Below, one piece after another: positions 137-34,794 of a stretch of 35,391 bases of DNA. The notes beneath the pieces were generated by a model. It saw only the letters and a program-made list of their open reading frames with translations, had not been told where the DNA came from and ran no database searches. The stretch spans positions 1 through 35,391 of the forward strand of contig JAPLNJ010001213.1 in NCBI GenBank assembly GCA_026692885.1, written 5' to 3'. The DNA is from Planctomycetota bacterium (GTDB lineage: Bacteria > Planctomycetota > Planctomycetia > Pirellulales > Pirellulaceae). The translations under genes and the position numbers were made by a program. Within the stretch, counting starts at the first letter, position 1. Every line of letters begins with the position of its first letter.

Positions 137-3100
137 CTACGTCGCGTTGTAAAGCTGCTCGCCGTCGCGCGGCTCCAACTTGCTCAAGTGCTCCGCGGCC
201 TGCACCACGGCCGCCCGATCCTTCTTCCGCGCCAGTTCCGTGATGCGGAGTGCGAGCAACTTGGGCTGCGCTTCGCGGGGAAGCTTCAGGACGTCGTCCC
301 ACGGTTTCGTGGCCAGCTCGGCCAGTTCCGTAAGCGCGACCTCACGCTTGAGAATCGCGAGTTCCTTTTCCGCCTGCTCGCGCAGCCGGTTCTCGGCAAT
401 TAACTTCTCCAATACACCGATCGCCGCGGCAAACCGCTCTTTCGCGGCGTCATAGCGAAAACGTGTTCGTTCGAGACGGCCTAACTTGTAAAGACTGACC
501 GACACATCCCGTTGCGATTGGGCGTTGCCGGGGTCCGCCGCGGCCAGCGTGCGGCTGATCTTGAGAGCCTCCTCGTACAGCGGTTGGGCGGCCTCGACGT
601 TCCCCCGCTTGACCTGCAGATCCGCCAGCTTGTTCAGGCTGACCGACACGTCCCGTTGCGATTTGGCGTTGCCGGGATCCCACGTGGCCAGCGTGCGGCT
701 GATCTTGAGAGCCTCCTCGCACAGCGGTTGGGCGGCCTCGACGTTCCCCTGGCGGACCTGCAGGTCCGCCAGATTGTCCAGGCTGACCGACACTTCCCGT
801 TGCGACTGGGCGTTGCCGGGGTCCGCCGCGGCCAGCGTGCGGCGGATCTTGAGAGCCTCCTTGTACAGCGGTTGGGCGGCCTCAATGTTCCCCCGCAGGA
901 CCTGCAGGTCCGCCAGCTTTCCCAGGCTGACCGACACGTCCCGTTGCGATTGGGCGTTGCCGGGGTCCGCCGCGGCCAGCGTGCGGCTGATCTTGAGATC
1001 CTCCTCGTACAGCGGTTGGGCGGCCTCGACGTTCCCCCGCAGGACCTGCAGGTCCGCCAGCTTGTTCAAGCAGACGCCGACATTGCTTTTATGACGCCAA
1101 TTGCCGGGATCCAGCACCACCAGACGCTTCGCGAGGTCCAGTCCCCGCCGGAATGCCTGCTCGGCTTGATCCAGCTTGCCGTGCGTCAACGCCTGTTCGC
1201 CATCGCGGCCGAAACGGATCATTTCGAGGTGCAGCGTGGCAATGTCGTCGACGCCTTCCTCCTTGAGCGTGGCCACCAGTTTCGACACCGATTCGACCAA
1301 TCGTTTGCGAACGGGTTGCGAGCCCGCCAGCTTCGTCAACTCCGTGTCCAGTTCGAAAAGGACGGCGTGCGCCAGTTCTTGCGCCTGCTTGAGACGATGG
1401 TTGGAAAGTTCGAGGTTCTTTTCCGCGTTGTGCGAGTTTTGCTTGGCGATCGTTGCGTTCCGTTCTGCCGTAATCGCGTTCTCGTTGGCGCGATTGGTTT
1501 CGGCTTGCGCCAGGAGTCGTTGGTTGTTCGCCCAGTACCCGAGAGCGGCGAAGACGACGGCGACGGCGATCAGGACCGCCACCCCGGCCCAGCGTGCGAC
1601 GCGCCGCTTGCGGTCGCGCCGGCAGCCTACGGCGAGGAAGTCGGTGGCGGTCGCCGAAACGTGCGGCGGTGGGGGCGTTTGCCAGTGCTGATACCACGCC
1701 AGCAAGGCGCCGGCGGGCAGGAATTCTCGGTCGCGGTGGTTGGTGTCCCAGGCGTGAGCGGCCGATTCCAGATCGTCGCGACGCTCCAAATCGCGGCGGT
1801 GAGCTTGGAGGAACGATTTTAGCCGGGGCCAGTCGGAAATCAGCACGTCGTGGATCACGTCGACCTGGTCCTGCTCGTCCACCGTGAGCAGGCGAAGCGG
1901 GGCGCGCGTGCCGTCCTGGCCCGACAGCCTCAGCAAGCTGGGCTCCGCGTGGGGGCCACCCACGGACAACAGCACGGACTTGGGCCGCGCGCGGCGGCGG
2001 TCGGCGGTGCCACGGCCGAGTTCCACCAGTTCCAGGAACATCCGCAAGGCGGCCGTCTGGTCCGCCTCGTTTTCCAAGGAGTCGAGCAGTCGATCCGCCG
2101 ACTGATTCACGGCCCCCGCCACGCCGCCGAGCGTTTGGTAGTCGTCAAACGTCAGGGTCGGTTGGTCGCGATTGACTTCGCGCGCCTTTTGCCACAGTTC
2201 GGCCAAGGTGTGGCTGAGCAGCGGCAAGCGGCCGGGACCGGCCAGCGTATCGTCGAGCAGTTGCTGGAGCAGCGCGGGAGAGGCAAGCCGCCCGCCGGCC
2301 AGTCGTAGCGGTTGCTCGATGGCCGCCGCGAGGCCCGCCTGCGCCATGGCGGGGACCGTGTAACGCTCGGCCGAGTTCAGCCGGTGCGACAGATCGGGAT
2401 GCCCGGCCACGTGGTGCTGGCAATCGCTGCGAATCGTCGAGACCAGCCGAAACGGGCCATCCCGGTCGTCGAGCGCGGCCAGCACCAGGCGAATGAATTG
2501 GGCGGGGGACGACGCGGCGTCGTGCTGGGCCGAGGCGAACAGCTCCTCGAACTGGTCGACGACCAGCAGTACCGAGCGCGGCGGCGTGAACTGGTGGTCC
2601 TTGTTCCACTGCCGCAGTTCGTTGGTCAGGGCCTGCGGGTTTTGGGACAGGCGGTTCTCGATGTCGGTCAAGGTCCCCTTGGGATTTTGGCCCGCGTCCA
2701 GTTCCAGCAGGGCGTCGGCGAGCGCTTTTATGGGATTCGTGCCGGGACGCATGACGAGCGTCAACCAATCGGGCTGACCGGGCCGGCTCGGGCGCCGCGC
2801 CATGGCCGGCAGCAGCCCCGCCTTCACCAACGACGACTTCCCCGTGCCGCTGGCCCCGTCGACCTGCAGCCAACGACAACCGGGCTGCTCCAGCTTGTCC
2901 ACGAGGGCCGCGGTTTCGTCCTGACGGCCGAAGAACAGGTGACTGTGCCGCTCGTCGAACGAGGCCAGACCGAGGAACGGCTCGGTAACCAGCGGCTGCG
3001 CGGGGGCCGCCTTGGGCGTGGTCTCGGGCTCGCCGAGCAGACGCCGCACGGACGCTCCCAATTCACTCAGGCCGTCGGCGGTGGACTGCCCGGCGGGGGC

Positions 3101-3478
3101 CGACAGCTGCGCGGCCTGGAAGACGCTCAAGAAACCGCTCAAGGCGTTCGGCACGCCGTGCAGCGGCTGATCGCCAATCAACACCGGCAGGATGTGCCGC
3201 GGGCCGGGGAGTTCGCTGAAATAGCAATGCAGCGCCCGACTGACTTCCGCTTCCACCCACCGCCGCGGGGCCCGATCGCTGAGCAGCACGACGAACACAC
3301 GGGCGCGCGAAAAACCGTCGTCGATGGCCCGGACCCAGAGTTCGCCGGGCGGGATCGACTTGGCATCCCACCACACGCGCAGGGCCTGACCGTCCGTGAG
3401 TGACGCGTAGACCTGCTGCGCCAGGGCCCGGTCCTCGGAGTGGTAGCTGAGAAAGACATCGAAGGCCTGCGTGGACAT
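137..3478 (-). CDS. TIR - STAND NTPase - transmembrane - TPR protein
   Basis: 1113 aa, likely a signalling or immune receptor. Residues 5-110 are a TIR domain: FDVFLSYHSED start, WWD strand, and W74-V-E-A-E78, where E78 sits at the position of the NAD-hydrolysing glutamate of TIR enzymes. Residues 167-560 are a STAND-type P-loop NTPase with Walker A at 208-215 (GASGTGKS) and Walker B at 303-311 (VLLVVDQFE). This matches the nSTAND1 class that often precedes WD40 repeats; here the C-terminus carries TPR-like repeats instead. A basic stretch (about 619-629) precedes one membrane helix (630-648), then a coiled coil rich in A/E/N/Q (650-705). Residues about 760-1010 hold TPR-like units with a strict 48-residue period. 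TIR-STAND proteins are known from bacterial defence and cell-death systems; the role here is inferred. No partner gene is adjacent. The start is preceded by a weak GGGGA. ORF intact, stop TAG. Confidence 0.85.
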   Translation of the reverse strand: MSTQAFDVFLSYHSEDRALAQQVYASLTDGQALRVWWDAKSIPPGELWVRAIDDGFSRARVFVVLLSDRAPRRWVEAEVSRALHCYFSELPGPRHILPVLIGDQPLHGVPNALSGFLSVFQAAQLSAPAGQSTADGLSELGASVRRLLGEPETTPKAAPAQPLVTEPFLGLASFDERHSHLFFGRQDETAALVDKLEQPGCRWLQVDGASGTGKSSLVKAGLLPAMARRPSRPGQPDWLTLVMRPGTNPIKALADALLELDAGQNPKGTLTDIENRLSQNPQALTNELRQWNKDHQFTPPRSVLLVVDQFEELFASAQHDAASSPAQFIRLVLAALDDRDGPFRLVSTIRSDCQHHVAGHPDLSHRLNSAERYTVPAMAQAGLAAAIEQPLRLAGGRLASPALLQQLLDDTLAGPGRLPLLSHTLAELWQKAREVNRDQPTLTFDDYQTLGGVAGAVNQSADRLLDSLENEADQTAALRMFLELVELGRGTADRRRARPKSVLLSVGGPHAEPSLLRLSGQDGTRAPLRLLTVDEQDQVDVIHDVLISDWPRLKSFLQAHRRDLERRDDLESAAHAWDTNHRDREFLPAGALLAWYQHWQTPPPPHVSATATDFLAVGCRRDRKRRVARWAGVAVLIAVAVVFAALGYWANNQRLLAQAETNRANENAITAERNATIAKQNSHNAEKNLELSNHRLKQAQELAHAVLFELDTELTKLAGSQPVRKRLVESVSKLVATLKEEGVDDIATLHLEMIRFGRDGEQALTHGKLDQAEQAFRRGLDLAKRLVVLDPGNWRHKSNVGVCLNKLADLQVLRGNVEAAQPLYEEDLKISRTLAAADPGNAQSQRDVSVSLGKLADLQVLRGNIEAAQPLYKEALKIRRTLAAADPGNAQSQREVSVSLDNLADLQVRQGNVEAAQPLCEEALKISRTLATWDPGNAKSQRDVSVSLNKLADLQVKRGNVEAAQPLYEEALKISRTLAAADPGNAQSQRDVSVSLYKLGRLERTRFRYDAAKERFAAAIGVLEKLIAENRLREQAEKELAILKREVALTELAELATKPWDDVLKLPREAQPKLLALRITELARKKDRAAVVQAAEHLSKLEPRDGEQLYNAT
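501..1076 (-). repeat. Four tandem 144-bp units coding TPR-like repeats
   Basis: Units begin near 501, 645, 789 and 933, exactly 144 bp (48 codons) apart, and differ from one another by only a few bases. The first and last units show roughly seven to nine substitutions over 144 bp, a count made by eye. Each unit encodes a helix pair of the form KLADLQV-RGNVEAAQPLYEE-LKISRTLA-DPGNAQSQRDVSVSL. Such DNA-level identity implies recent duplication or gene conversion. Confidence 0.9.
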
Positions 3479-31834: not shown

Positions 31835-32460
31835 TTAGTCTGTCGCCTTGGCGGGCCGGCGTTTAGCGCCGCTGGCGCGAGGCGAAAGGCCGACACCGGC
31901 CGCCCGGGTTTGGTCGGCGGCTTGCACGCGGTCCAGCGCCGCTTTGTCCAGGTCGCCGATGAAGGGGTTCGATTGCTCGGCCAGCACACGCTGTTGCGCG
32001 AGACAACGCTCAAAGATTCGCGCCAGGTCGTCCATCTCGATTTGTTCGTTGCCACGCTGTAATGCTTCGGCCGCAGCGCCGCGCACCAGCGTCATCAAGT
32101 AGTCCGGCACGCCGCGGCTGGCCAGATAGAACCGGCCAGCCAAGTCGGCGTTCGCCAGGCTGGATGTCTCTGCCAGCGGCAAGCTCTCATCCAGCTTCTT
32201 GAGCATGCCGCAGAACTCGCGCTGGCCTTGTGGCGTGCGTCAGGTGAAACAGCGGAGGGTCAGCCGTTGCTTGAACCGGCGTTCGGTGTGCTCGGCGCTG
32301 AGCACGTACTCGGCCTCCGGCATGCCGCACACGACCACCGGGAGGCCCGTGTTGACGATCAGCACCTTGAGCCACTGCGAAGCCTTGGTCATGACCTTGG
32401 CCCGGTCCACGTCGAACAGGTGGTGAAATTCGTCGAGCACGATCAGTTCGACGCCGCAGT
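31835..32460 (-). pseudogene. tniB: TniB-type transposition ATPase, 5'-truncated with nonsense codon
   Basis: Reading from 32460: CGVELIVLDEFHHLFDVDRA (Walker B and following), VMTKASQWLKVLIVNTGLPV, VVCGMPEAEYVL...RRFKQRLTLRCFT, a TGA at 32240-32242, then in the same frame RTPQGQREFCGMLKKLDESLP, ADLAGRFYLASRGVPDYLMTL and the C-terminal tail to 31835. This is the AAA+ helper of Tn5053/Tn7-like elements (TniB/TnsC type). The N-terminus with Walker A is missing, cut exactly where repeat copy B begins. The TGA replaces what is probably a Trp or Arg codon. Non-functional. Confidence 0.8.
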
Positions 32461-32573
32461 GTAGGGTGGGCCAGAGCGGGTCAGGCGAGAACGCTCTCCA
32501 AATGGTAAGAACGGAGATTTGCCGTGGAACCGTCCCAGGCCAAGAAACCGAACGCCGGCCCACCGGGATCCGC
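32461..32573. repeat. Interspersed GTAGGGTGGGCC element, copy B
   Basis: 113 bp with the same start (GTAGGGTGGGCCAGAGCGG) and end (CGCCGGCCCACC-GGATCCGCT) as copy A at 29604. The middle differs. A further half copy in inverted orientation is at about 32613-32636 (ATCCTGGTGGGCCGGCGC). It truncates tniB precisely at base 32460/32461. Confidence 0.75.
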
Positions 32574-32759
32574 TGAGCATTACGAACGAATCGCATCGCA
32601 CGAGATGGCGAGTCTATCCTGGTGGGCCGGCGCTGGTCCGCACCCGATTTCCGGCTCGCCGACTTGGTCGCGCTGTTGGTTGGGACTGTTGGTTGCCGCT
32701 GGTCCGCTCGCTCGCGGATCGCCCGTTTCAACACCCGCCACTGATACTCGGTCATGGGA

Positions 32760-33038
32760 TCGCAGAATGGCGTGTCGTAGGGTTTTCATGAGCACGGCAT
32801 ACGAGGGCGGCTCGAAGCCCAGACAGAAGCCGACGACCATGCGGCTGTAGTAGTCGATGAGCAGCGAGAGCCAAGGCTGGCCGATGGGGCCGGCCTCCGT
32901 GCCGACAACGACCTTCAACGGGCTGTGGTCGATCTCGACCCGTTGCAAAACGCGCGTGGACAATTGCTGCGGTGACGTGGGGGCGTGGCGGCGGTCGGTC
33001 TTCGGGCCACGGCGGGGCTTGTCCCCGTCGAGCCATGT
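32760..33038 (-). pseudogene. tniA: TniA-type DDE transposase fragment
   Basis: The minus frame reads GDKPRRGPKTDRRHAPTSPQ, then LQRVEIDHSPLKVVVGTEAGP (first catalytic Asp), PWLSLLIDYYSRMVVGFCLG, FEPPSYAVLMKTLRHAIL, characteristic of the rve/Mu-type integrase core of TniA/TnsB. It is closed upstream by a stop at 33039-33041 and loses similarity after about 32760, before the final Glu. Between it and repeat copy B (32574-32759) only a short helical scrap (MTEYQWRVLKRAIRERADQR, another frame) looks protein-like. With tniB it marks a decayed Tn5053/Tn7-like transposon. Confidence 0.7.
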
Positions 33039-33087
33039 TCAAAACCAGATCAGTTCCCTTGAATCGCCGCTTCTTTCTTCATCACTG

Positions 33088-34019
33088 CCCGGCTTGCCCG
33101 GGTAGGATGATGTTCCCATGCTATACGGCATGCCTTCCCTGACGCCCATTTACACGCGCGAGAACTGCCGGTTCTCTTGCCCGCTGCAGTGGGGCTTGAC
33201 CGTCTTCTGGCGGAAGCCAGAACTGGATGACGGCTGATACCAAGACTTGGCCACAGCAACCGAACCCGATGGTATTCGCCTTCTGTCACATCGCTTCTCG
33301 GAACCTGAAACCAGCCAATTCGCGATCAGTACCCAGCCCCAGGTGTCACCGCTGCTGGTCGTTCAACGTGTGAAAGGTCGACTGCAGCATTTGATGCGAC
33401 AGCGTGTGCCCAAGGCATTCCAGGGCAACTATGCGATCCGTAGCGTCGGAACCGTCACACGGGAAACGGTTGAGGCGTACGCAGCCGATCAACTGGGTCA
33501 CCATCGCATGGCAGACCCAGGTGTCCAGACGCGATTCGCAAAGTATCAAATCGAACGCCCGGAGGTTGATTTGTCGCAGCCGCAACGGACTTCCCACGGG
33601 ATGTACTGGTACAACCTTCACGTCGTTCTGGTTCATCGCGAACGCTGGACGGAGGTTCGGGATGATGTGCTGCAGCGAGTCCACGACATGATCATCAAAT
33701 CAGCGGATGCGAAAGGATATCGACTCTCCCGTGCGGGTATTCTGGCGGATCACGTGCATCTCTTGCTGGGTTGCCCCATCGAGGCAGCGCCCGAGGAAGT
33801 CGCCTTGGGATTTCTGAACAATCTGGCCTATGCGCATGAGATGAAGCCAATCTACCAATACGGCGGTTTCGTGGGCACGGTTGGTGAGTACACGACGAAA
33901 GCCATGGGATCGGGAACACCGCTCCACGCAGACAAGCTGCGAGGTGGCGAGGAGAACGGATGAGGGGAGCCGTTTCTGGTTGTGAACGCCGTTCCATGCA
34001 GGCAAGCTGCATGGTGACG
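33088..34019 (+). mobile_element. Y1-transposase element with subterminal hairpins
   Basis: The transposase gene (33118-33963) is preceded by a CCCGG-cttgc-CCGGG hairpin (33088-33102) and followed by two similar hairpins within a 31-bp direct repeat, one copy at 33919-33949 (CGCAG-acaag-CTGCG) and one at 33989-34019 (CATGCAG-gcaag-CTGCATG). Loops cttgc/acaag/gcaag are alike. IS200/IS605-like and REP systems are recognised by such subterminal hairpins. The right side ends within about 5 bp of where the TnsA-like sequence breaks, suggesting insertion there. Exact ends are not fixed. Confidence 0.55.
33118..33963 (+). pseudogene. Tandem-domain Y1 (HUH) transposase with TGA at codon 40
   Basis: ATG 33118 (MLYGMPSLTPIYTRENCRFS; AGGA upstream) opens 281 codons broken by one TGA at 33235-33237, in LDDG*YQDLA, where Trp would fit. 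A TTG at 33247 allows the rest to be read. Two Y1-like halves are visible. Half one: LQWGLTVFW ... FAISTQPQVSPLLVVQRVKGRL ... YAIRSVGTVTRETVEAYAADQLG, with Tyr121 in a YxxxQ helix typical of the Y1 nucleophile but no HUH. Half two: YWYNLHVVLVHRERW ... ILADHVHLLLG (H212-V-H214, the HUH motif) ... LLNNLAYAHEM ... FVGTVGEYTTKAM, without YxxxQ. Y1 transposases act as dimers on single-stranded DNA hairpins; here both halves are in one chain. Confidence 0.75.
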
Positions 34020-34794
34020 TGCCCTCGGTGGCGGCGTATTGCCGGGCCACCGAGAGCTTGCGTTGAGCGAGAGGTTTTGCCAACCGATCGGAAGGCTTGA
34101 CCTCGACGAGCCGCTTTTGGCCGCGGGTCATCTCCACCAGGAAATCGGGCACGATGTAGCTGCAACCCGCGTTGGCTTCCTTGCGGGGCCGCACGTCCGG
34201 CGCGGCTTTGAGCAACTCGATGTGCAAGGTATTGCCCTGCTCGCGCCACTGGTACCAGATGGTCAGCGGTTGCTCCTGGATGTCGATCAGCAGTTGACGC
34301 TTGCTGGAGAAGACGGTCCGGCCGAGGGCCCATTTGTCCGCGCGCAGCAGGGCTTGGCGGATTACGACGAAGGGCTTCATTGCCGCCGGGTGGGCCGGCG
34401 CGAGGTACAGGCTCCGACCGGCCAGCAGCGTCAGGTCGACTTCGGTCGGTGAGAGGAAGTGTTCCAGGTGGATGGTCTTGTCGTCCGTCGGTTCCAGCGT
34501 GGCGAGGTCTTCTTCGTTCAGTGCGACGCACTGCTCGGCGCTGTAGGGATAGCCCTTGGCGATCTGGTCGGCCGGTACGCGGCCGTGTTTGGGGCAGCAC
34601 TTGTGATACTCGATGTGTTCCCCGCAGCCGGCGTGGAGTTGGCGCAGGGAGACGGCGGCGGTGGAACTGATCGTGGGATAAGCCTTGACGGGGACACAGC
34701 AGGAGCCGAGCCGGAGTTGGCCGGACCAACTGGCGCGGCTGGCCGGTGGCGCGGTGGCCACCGGCGATGGATCAACGAGCAGAGTTGTGGACAT
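33700..34794 (-). CDS. Chimeric ORF: Ku N-terminal half joined to TnsA-like nuclease
   Basis: ATG 34794 with GGAGGAG six bases upstream. Residues 18-168 are bacterial Ku: ASWSGQLRLGSCCVPVKAY, VSLRQLHAGCGEHIEYHKCCPKHG, GYPYSAEQCVALNEEDLATL, SLYLAPAHPAAMKPFVVIRQALL, VFSSKRQLL. Ku binds DNA ends in NHEJ with LigD; its last about 100 residues are missing. From IDIQEQPLTIWYQWREQG (170) it becomes a TnsA-like restriction-fold endonuclease: CSYIVPDFLVEM (D217), KRLVEVKPSDRL (E231, K233), RKLSVARQYAATEG to 257. The first TnsA catalytic Glu would fall at the joint and is replaced (SKRQLL). Residues 258-364 are antisense of the Y1 element, not native. TnsA belongs with the TniA/TniB remnants on the same strand. 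A deletion fusion is likelier than a natural one. Confidence 0.7.
   Translation of the reverse strand: MSTTLLVDPSPVATAPPASRASWSGQLRLGSCCVPVKAYPTISSTAAVSLRQLHAGCGEHIEYHKCCPKHGRVPADQIAKGYPYSAEQCVALNEEDLATLEPTDDKTIHLEHFLSPTEVDLTLLAGRSLYLAPAHPAAMKPFVVIRQALLRADKWALGRTVFSSKRQLLIDIQEQPLTIWYQWREQGNTLHIELLKAAPDVRPRKEANAGCSYIVPDFLVEMTRGQKRLVEVKPSDRLAKPLAQRKLSVARQYAATEGTSPCSLPAWNGVHNQKRLPSSVLLATSQLVCVERCSRSHGFRRVLTNRAHETAVLVDWLHLMRIGQIVQKSQGDFLGRCLDGATQQEMHVIRQNTRTGESISFRIR

Follow-up and report, generated by a model that had tools for sequence, protein, structure and literature searches.

The window, a stretch of 35,391 nt from a Planctomycetota bacterium of the Pirellulaceae (contig JAPLNJ010001213.1), carries a reading frame for a protein with two Y1-like halves, here called the double-Y1 protein, together with several REP-like elements (Table 1). 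The frame comprises 281 codons ahead of its final stop, and the coordinates and motif residues (Y121 and H212-V-H214) assigned to it in a sequence-only reading are correct on direct checking of the sequence. It is interrupted at codon 40, and the longest listed intact ORF runs from a TTG at 33247 to the TGA at 33961–33963 (238 aa). Two stretches of this ORF match Pfam Y1_Tnp (4.3e-13), and NCBIfam places it among the IS200/IS605 transposases (NF033573, 58.4 bits, cut-off 55). The same model reaches at least 55 bits in four of eight relatives and 51.5 bits, below the cut-off, in P0001, the best homologue listed, which is 91% identical to the window protein and lacks the stop at codon 40. Decoding of TGA as Trp in the window copy is disfavoured, since the same frame terminates in TGA and its own stop would vanish; the internal TGA is better taken as the mark of a broken copy or as a sequence error, and the window gene is probably a broken copy of the double-Y1 family.

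Table 1. Features of the double-Y1 locus, with positions counted from the first letter of the window
Feature	Position	Strand	Remarks
REP-like element, distal upstream copy, inverted	33005..33040	-	loop 33018-33022; family pattern match
REP-like hairpin, proximal upstream copy, inverted	33085..33105	-	loop 33093-33097
Double-Y1 protein frame	33118..33963	+	internal stop at codon 40; intact ORF 33247-33963
N-half Y1 fold, residues 18-128, HUH lost	33169..33501	+	models of relatives, fold match, hhalign register
In-frame TGA, codon 40, of the window copy	33235..33237	+	
Y121-x3-Q125, N-half helix aD	33478..33492	+	Y121 = 33478-33480, Q125 = 33490-33492
C-half Y1 fold, residues 154-263, stops before the Tyr helix	33577..33906	+	models of relatives
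H212-V-H214, sole HUH	33751..33759	+	H212 = 33751-33753, H214 = 33757-33759
Y258, conserved in clade I only	33889..33891	+	
REP-like element within the last codons of the gene	33914..33949	+	loop 33932-33936; family pattern match
REP-like element 3' of the stop	33984..34019	+	loop 34002-34006; family pattern match

The four REP-like elements of the window are two inverted copies upstream and two direct copies downstream of the gene; three of them match the family REP pattern, which matches nothing else in the 35 kb (0.00 expected), the pattern having been written from copies already read, the window's included. On the minus strand, an ORF at 33700–34794, the 3' part of which shares DNA with the double-Y1 gene and the REP elements, shows an unusual pairing of a Ku70/Ku80 domain (1.3e-27) with a TnsA-like endonuclease N-terminus (8.4e-9). 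An ORF at 32240–32755 (-) has a TniB-like match (3.3e-6), and the one lying between these two, at 32752–33042 (-), has no Pfam match. The TniB-like and TnsA-like ORFs suggest a decayed Tn7/Tn5053-like operon as the possible setting of the double-Y1 gene and its REPs. Elsewhere in the window, a protein encoded at 137–3478 (-) with TIR, nSTAND1, and TPR matches has a domain composition like that of some NTPases of defence or signalling.

The window protein has 786 homologues at E ≤ 1e-3, 120 of them listed, and is therefore not a chance reading. The 40 related genome loci, found chiefly on metagenome-assembled contigs, include 24 of planctomycete type, 11 from other PVC groups, and five others or unassigned. 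A distant second clade (clade II; 468 homologues, 120 of them listed) occurs in genomes that also carry clade I (L056, L060) and shows 17–24% identity to P0001 in an aligned sample. Proteins of both clades are already present in databases under generic names. Each genome contains one to four gene matches, fragments included. One of these matches, L059 (genome G011), covers profile positions 3–143 only and shares 90.7% identity with L047 across 495 bp; its L047-like part runs on into REP-like repeats, and it may be what remains after a deletion, with the junction at a REP.

Many genes of the family lie between palindromes that share a five-base RCRAG loop and, in most cases, face opposite ways upstream and downstream of the gene. 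Under a strict rule (loop RCRAG and a perfect stem of at least 7), applied to 37 of 41 sequences (40 loci and the window, leaving out the fragments L030, L036, L038, and L040), 64 hairpins are found in 30.1 kb of flanks and one within the genes (26.4 kb), with none in 123.9 kb further from the genes and none in shuffles. At least one strict hairpin is present at 23 of the 37 loci, and several of the 14 loci with no strict RCRAG hairpin have hairpins with other loops. Upstream, 19 strict hairpins have minus and 7 plus orientation, and downstream 27 have plus and 11 minus orientation; both clade II loci examined are likewise flanked by hairpins. Compensatory changes occur in the stems (C-G 17 and G-C 11; G-C 14 and C-G 13; A-T 12, T-A 12, and G-C 4) among 31 distinct sequences picked solely by the 5' box CTGGTnnTGAAC, a set that includes L089, apparently a chance box match. 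Moreover, one REP type reaches 79, 23, 11, and 3 copies in four of 11 genomes, with 0 copies in the other seven and 0 for the reversed pattern, the pattern for this type also having been written from copies already read, the window's included. A second type gives three hits and is not multi-copy. GTAG, recalling the REP tag, precedes the loop by 27–29 nt in 31 of 112 rows, and GT[AG]G is not found directly 5' of the hairpin foot in the 112, which include several rows per locus and are not independent. The dispersed REP copies and the flanking hairpins form a REPtron-like layout.

The two Y1-like halves proposed for the protein are seen in structure models, made for close relatives of the window protein rather than for a mended window protein, which show the Y1 fold of IS200/IS605 TnpA in each half; the whole-chain model of a relative has a pTM of 0.91. 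The pLDDT of helix aD is about 94–97 in the whole chain versus 59–67 in the lone N-half, the latter modelled from a shallower alignment (26 rows against 60), and this gap may be taken as a lesser hint that the helix docks on the C-half. When canonical TnpA (2ec2) is compared with the family profile, its residues 3–81 correspond to the C-half and residues 93–136 to the N-half. Of the four cross comparisons between N- and C-half profiles, three give weak matches (E 0.023, 0.13, and 0.14), and only that of the clade I N-half with the clade II C-half is better (E 1.1e-4).

The sequence-only reading had described a first half with a Tyr in YxxxQ and a lost HUH and a second half with H212-V-H214 and no YxxxQ helix, and had called for a family search for the same split; both descriptions hold in the homologues. 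When 270 sequences are aligned jointly (240 listed proteins, that is, 120 of the 786 of clade I and 120 of the 468 of clade II, 29 of the 40 loci, and the window), Y121 and Q125 are kept in all 120 listed proteins of each clade and at 29/29 loci. H212 is retained in 119/120 listed clade I proteins, at 29/29 loci, and in 120/120 listed clade II proteins, and H214 in the same numbers, its clade I exception being a gap. Among 60 aligned sequences with identities as low as 27%, twelve columns are invariant, and Y121, Q125, H212, H214, and Y258 belong to them. None of the 270 sequences has an HxH at the homologous N-half site; four contain one within the scanned residues 55–79, always upstream, and relatives have I/V-S-Q at 65–67 in place of the HUH (register from hhalign). 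YxxxQ is absent beyond residue 258 from the 150 rows of clade I, the loci, and the window. In clade II, the C-half retains the helix, with its Tyr in 116 of 118 rows, and its Gln position is occupied by W (103) or F (12) and never by Q in 117 non-gap rows. Y258 is present at 29/29 loci and, with gaps excluded, in 117/118 clade I rows, and clade II has L, M, S, or A at this position. Judging from these alignments, the split of HUH and Tyr between the halves, common to clade I, the loci, and clade II, is a family trait.

In IS608 TnpA, the active site is composed of His64 and His66 from one chain and Tyr127 and Gln131 on helix aD from the other (PMC5934647). Since those sites are built in trans, the two losses in the double-Y1 protein fall on the same site, which is left with neither component, and the other site stays whole; this supports the proposal of a fused dimer keeping one composite site. 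A composite site is favoured because cis halves with the same losses would have both sites ruined and four residues needlessly kept. Residue conservation thus suggests trans sharing of the active site between the halves, and we consider it rather probable that the family represents fused IS200-like TnpA pairs with one site, formed by the N-half Tyr and the C-half HUH, which process and spread REP elements. For its mode of action, we infer trans docking, one-site chemistry, REP elements as substrate, and mobilisation. The fusion of two IS200-like TnpA units would have given a single-chain pseudo-dimer, that is, a natural heterodimer, in which the N-half helix aD (Tyr121 and Gln125) could dock on the C-half and complete a metal/tyrosine site with H212 and H214, as the helix of one subunit completes the site of the other in the IS608 dimer. 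The other site would be missing its N-half HUH and, on the C-half side, either the Tyr helix itself (in clade I) or the Gln of that helix (in clade II). The chain would bind its cognate REP-type hairpin within single-stranded DNA and cleave beside it through a Y121 phosphotyrosine, the metal being held by H212, H214, and Q125. Rejoining would use this one site again, for a second attack, the ends being handled one at a time, and REP elements would spread in this way, whereas a reciprocal two-site exchange in the style of IS608 would require two chains.

The working unit might instead be a dimer of chains with one composite site each, the two sites acting together as in IS608, given that related TnpA operates as dimers (PMC6006769). 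However, E. coli TnpAREP, seen apparently as a monomer, still cleaves and rejoins single-stranded REPs (PMC6006769, PMC8266576), thus two sites are not required for REP processing, and the two halves are already a confident unit in one chain; this arrangement is conceivable but seems unlikely. That the gene is a whole-element insertion sequence moving between its inverted repeats, and not a stationary REP processor, appears doubtful. Copies in the same genome (L047, L053, and L059) are indeed homologous from ~105 bp before the gene to the repeats, but in other cases the repeats are far from genes, genome G002 has 79 repeats versus three gene matches, and gene copies per genome are few.

A C-half acting alone in cis, with Y258 serving in clade I and the Tyr of the C-half helix in clade II, and with a structural N-half, would agree with the strong conservation of these tyrosines within their clades. 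Nevertheless, Y258 is replaced in clade II, the Tyr helix of clade II is absent from clade I, and only Y121 and Q125 are common to both, so that this reading is very improbable. We give equally little credence to a catalytically dead DNA-binding family: the window copy is interrupted and stops are flagged inside two of the 40 locus matches (L003, L012), but Tyr, Gln, and both His persist almost without exception in sequences with as little as 27% identity and in the ~20%-identical clade.

The double-Y1 one-site protein, of which the sequence-only reading knew no description, was not found in the accessible text of the open-access literature searched either. A survey of TnpA proteins recognized three classes and twelve subclasses, retained 722 of 924 sequences having a complete core with both motifs, and set unusually long proteins aside as fusions or annotation errors (PMC6006769); with such a complete-core filter, the double-Y1 form would tend to drop out, and the available portion of that source makes no mention of a one-site fused form. 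HUH and Tyr are described as conserved in aligned RAYTs and TIRYTs (PMC3733652). In symmetric dimers, any mutation strikes both sites, which makes it difficult to ask whether Y1 strand exchange depends on two reciprocal sites; in a one-site version within one chain, seemingly made by evolution, each catalytic residue could be altered alone. If the reading is true, Y1 strand exchange can proceed without two reciprocal sites. Furthermore, the findings extend REP-type repeats, paired with a candidate enzyme of their own, beyond the proteobacteria, where REP systems are best studied.

The double-Y1 protein resembles the IS200/IS605 TnpA (IS608, ISDra2) in the Y1 fold of each half, the YxxxQ and HUH motifs, and NF033573 as the best family model. 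Unlike them, it packs two units into a single chain of about 240–290 aa, with its one HUH in one half and its one YxxxQ in the other, and its gene is flanked by inverted REP-like hairpins; the IS200/IS605 order, with HUH before Tyr in one core of ~113 aa and a protein of ~150 aa, is not followed, as Y121 precedes H212. The TnpAREP/RAYT of E. coli and Pseudomonas are similar in having a gene among REP hairpins, dispersed copies, and one complete site per chain, and the RAYT feature of flanking hairpins with multiple genomic copies is seen as flanking at 23/37 loci and as multi-copy repeats in 4/11 genomes. However, E. coli TnpAREP is a single-domain protein with HUH and Tyr within one unit, none of eight relatives passes the TnpAREP/RAYT model NF047646 (best 25.7 bits, cut-off 80), and the GTAG of double-Y1 hairpins, where present, lies away from the hairpin foot. 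TnpAY1 class 3 (Quentin et al. 2018, PMC6006769) shares Planctomycetes among its main phyla, a Tyr/Gln motif, and multi-copy atypical hairpins, but its proteins are of about 178 aa with Y-x4-Q, in contrast to two folds with Y-x3-Q before the HUH. The chances seem evenly balanced that the double-Y1 family is a separate class of REP transposases, mainly of planctomycetes and related phyla, in which a fused IS200-like dimer minus one shared site would have reached one-site REP processing by a structural route unlike that of E. coli TnpAREP.
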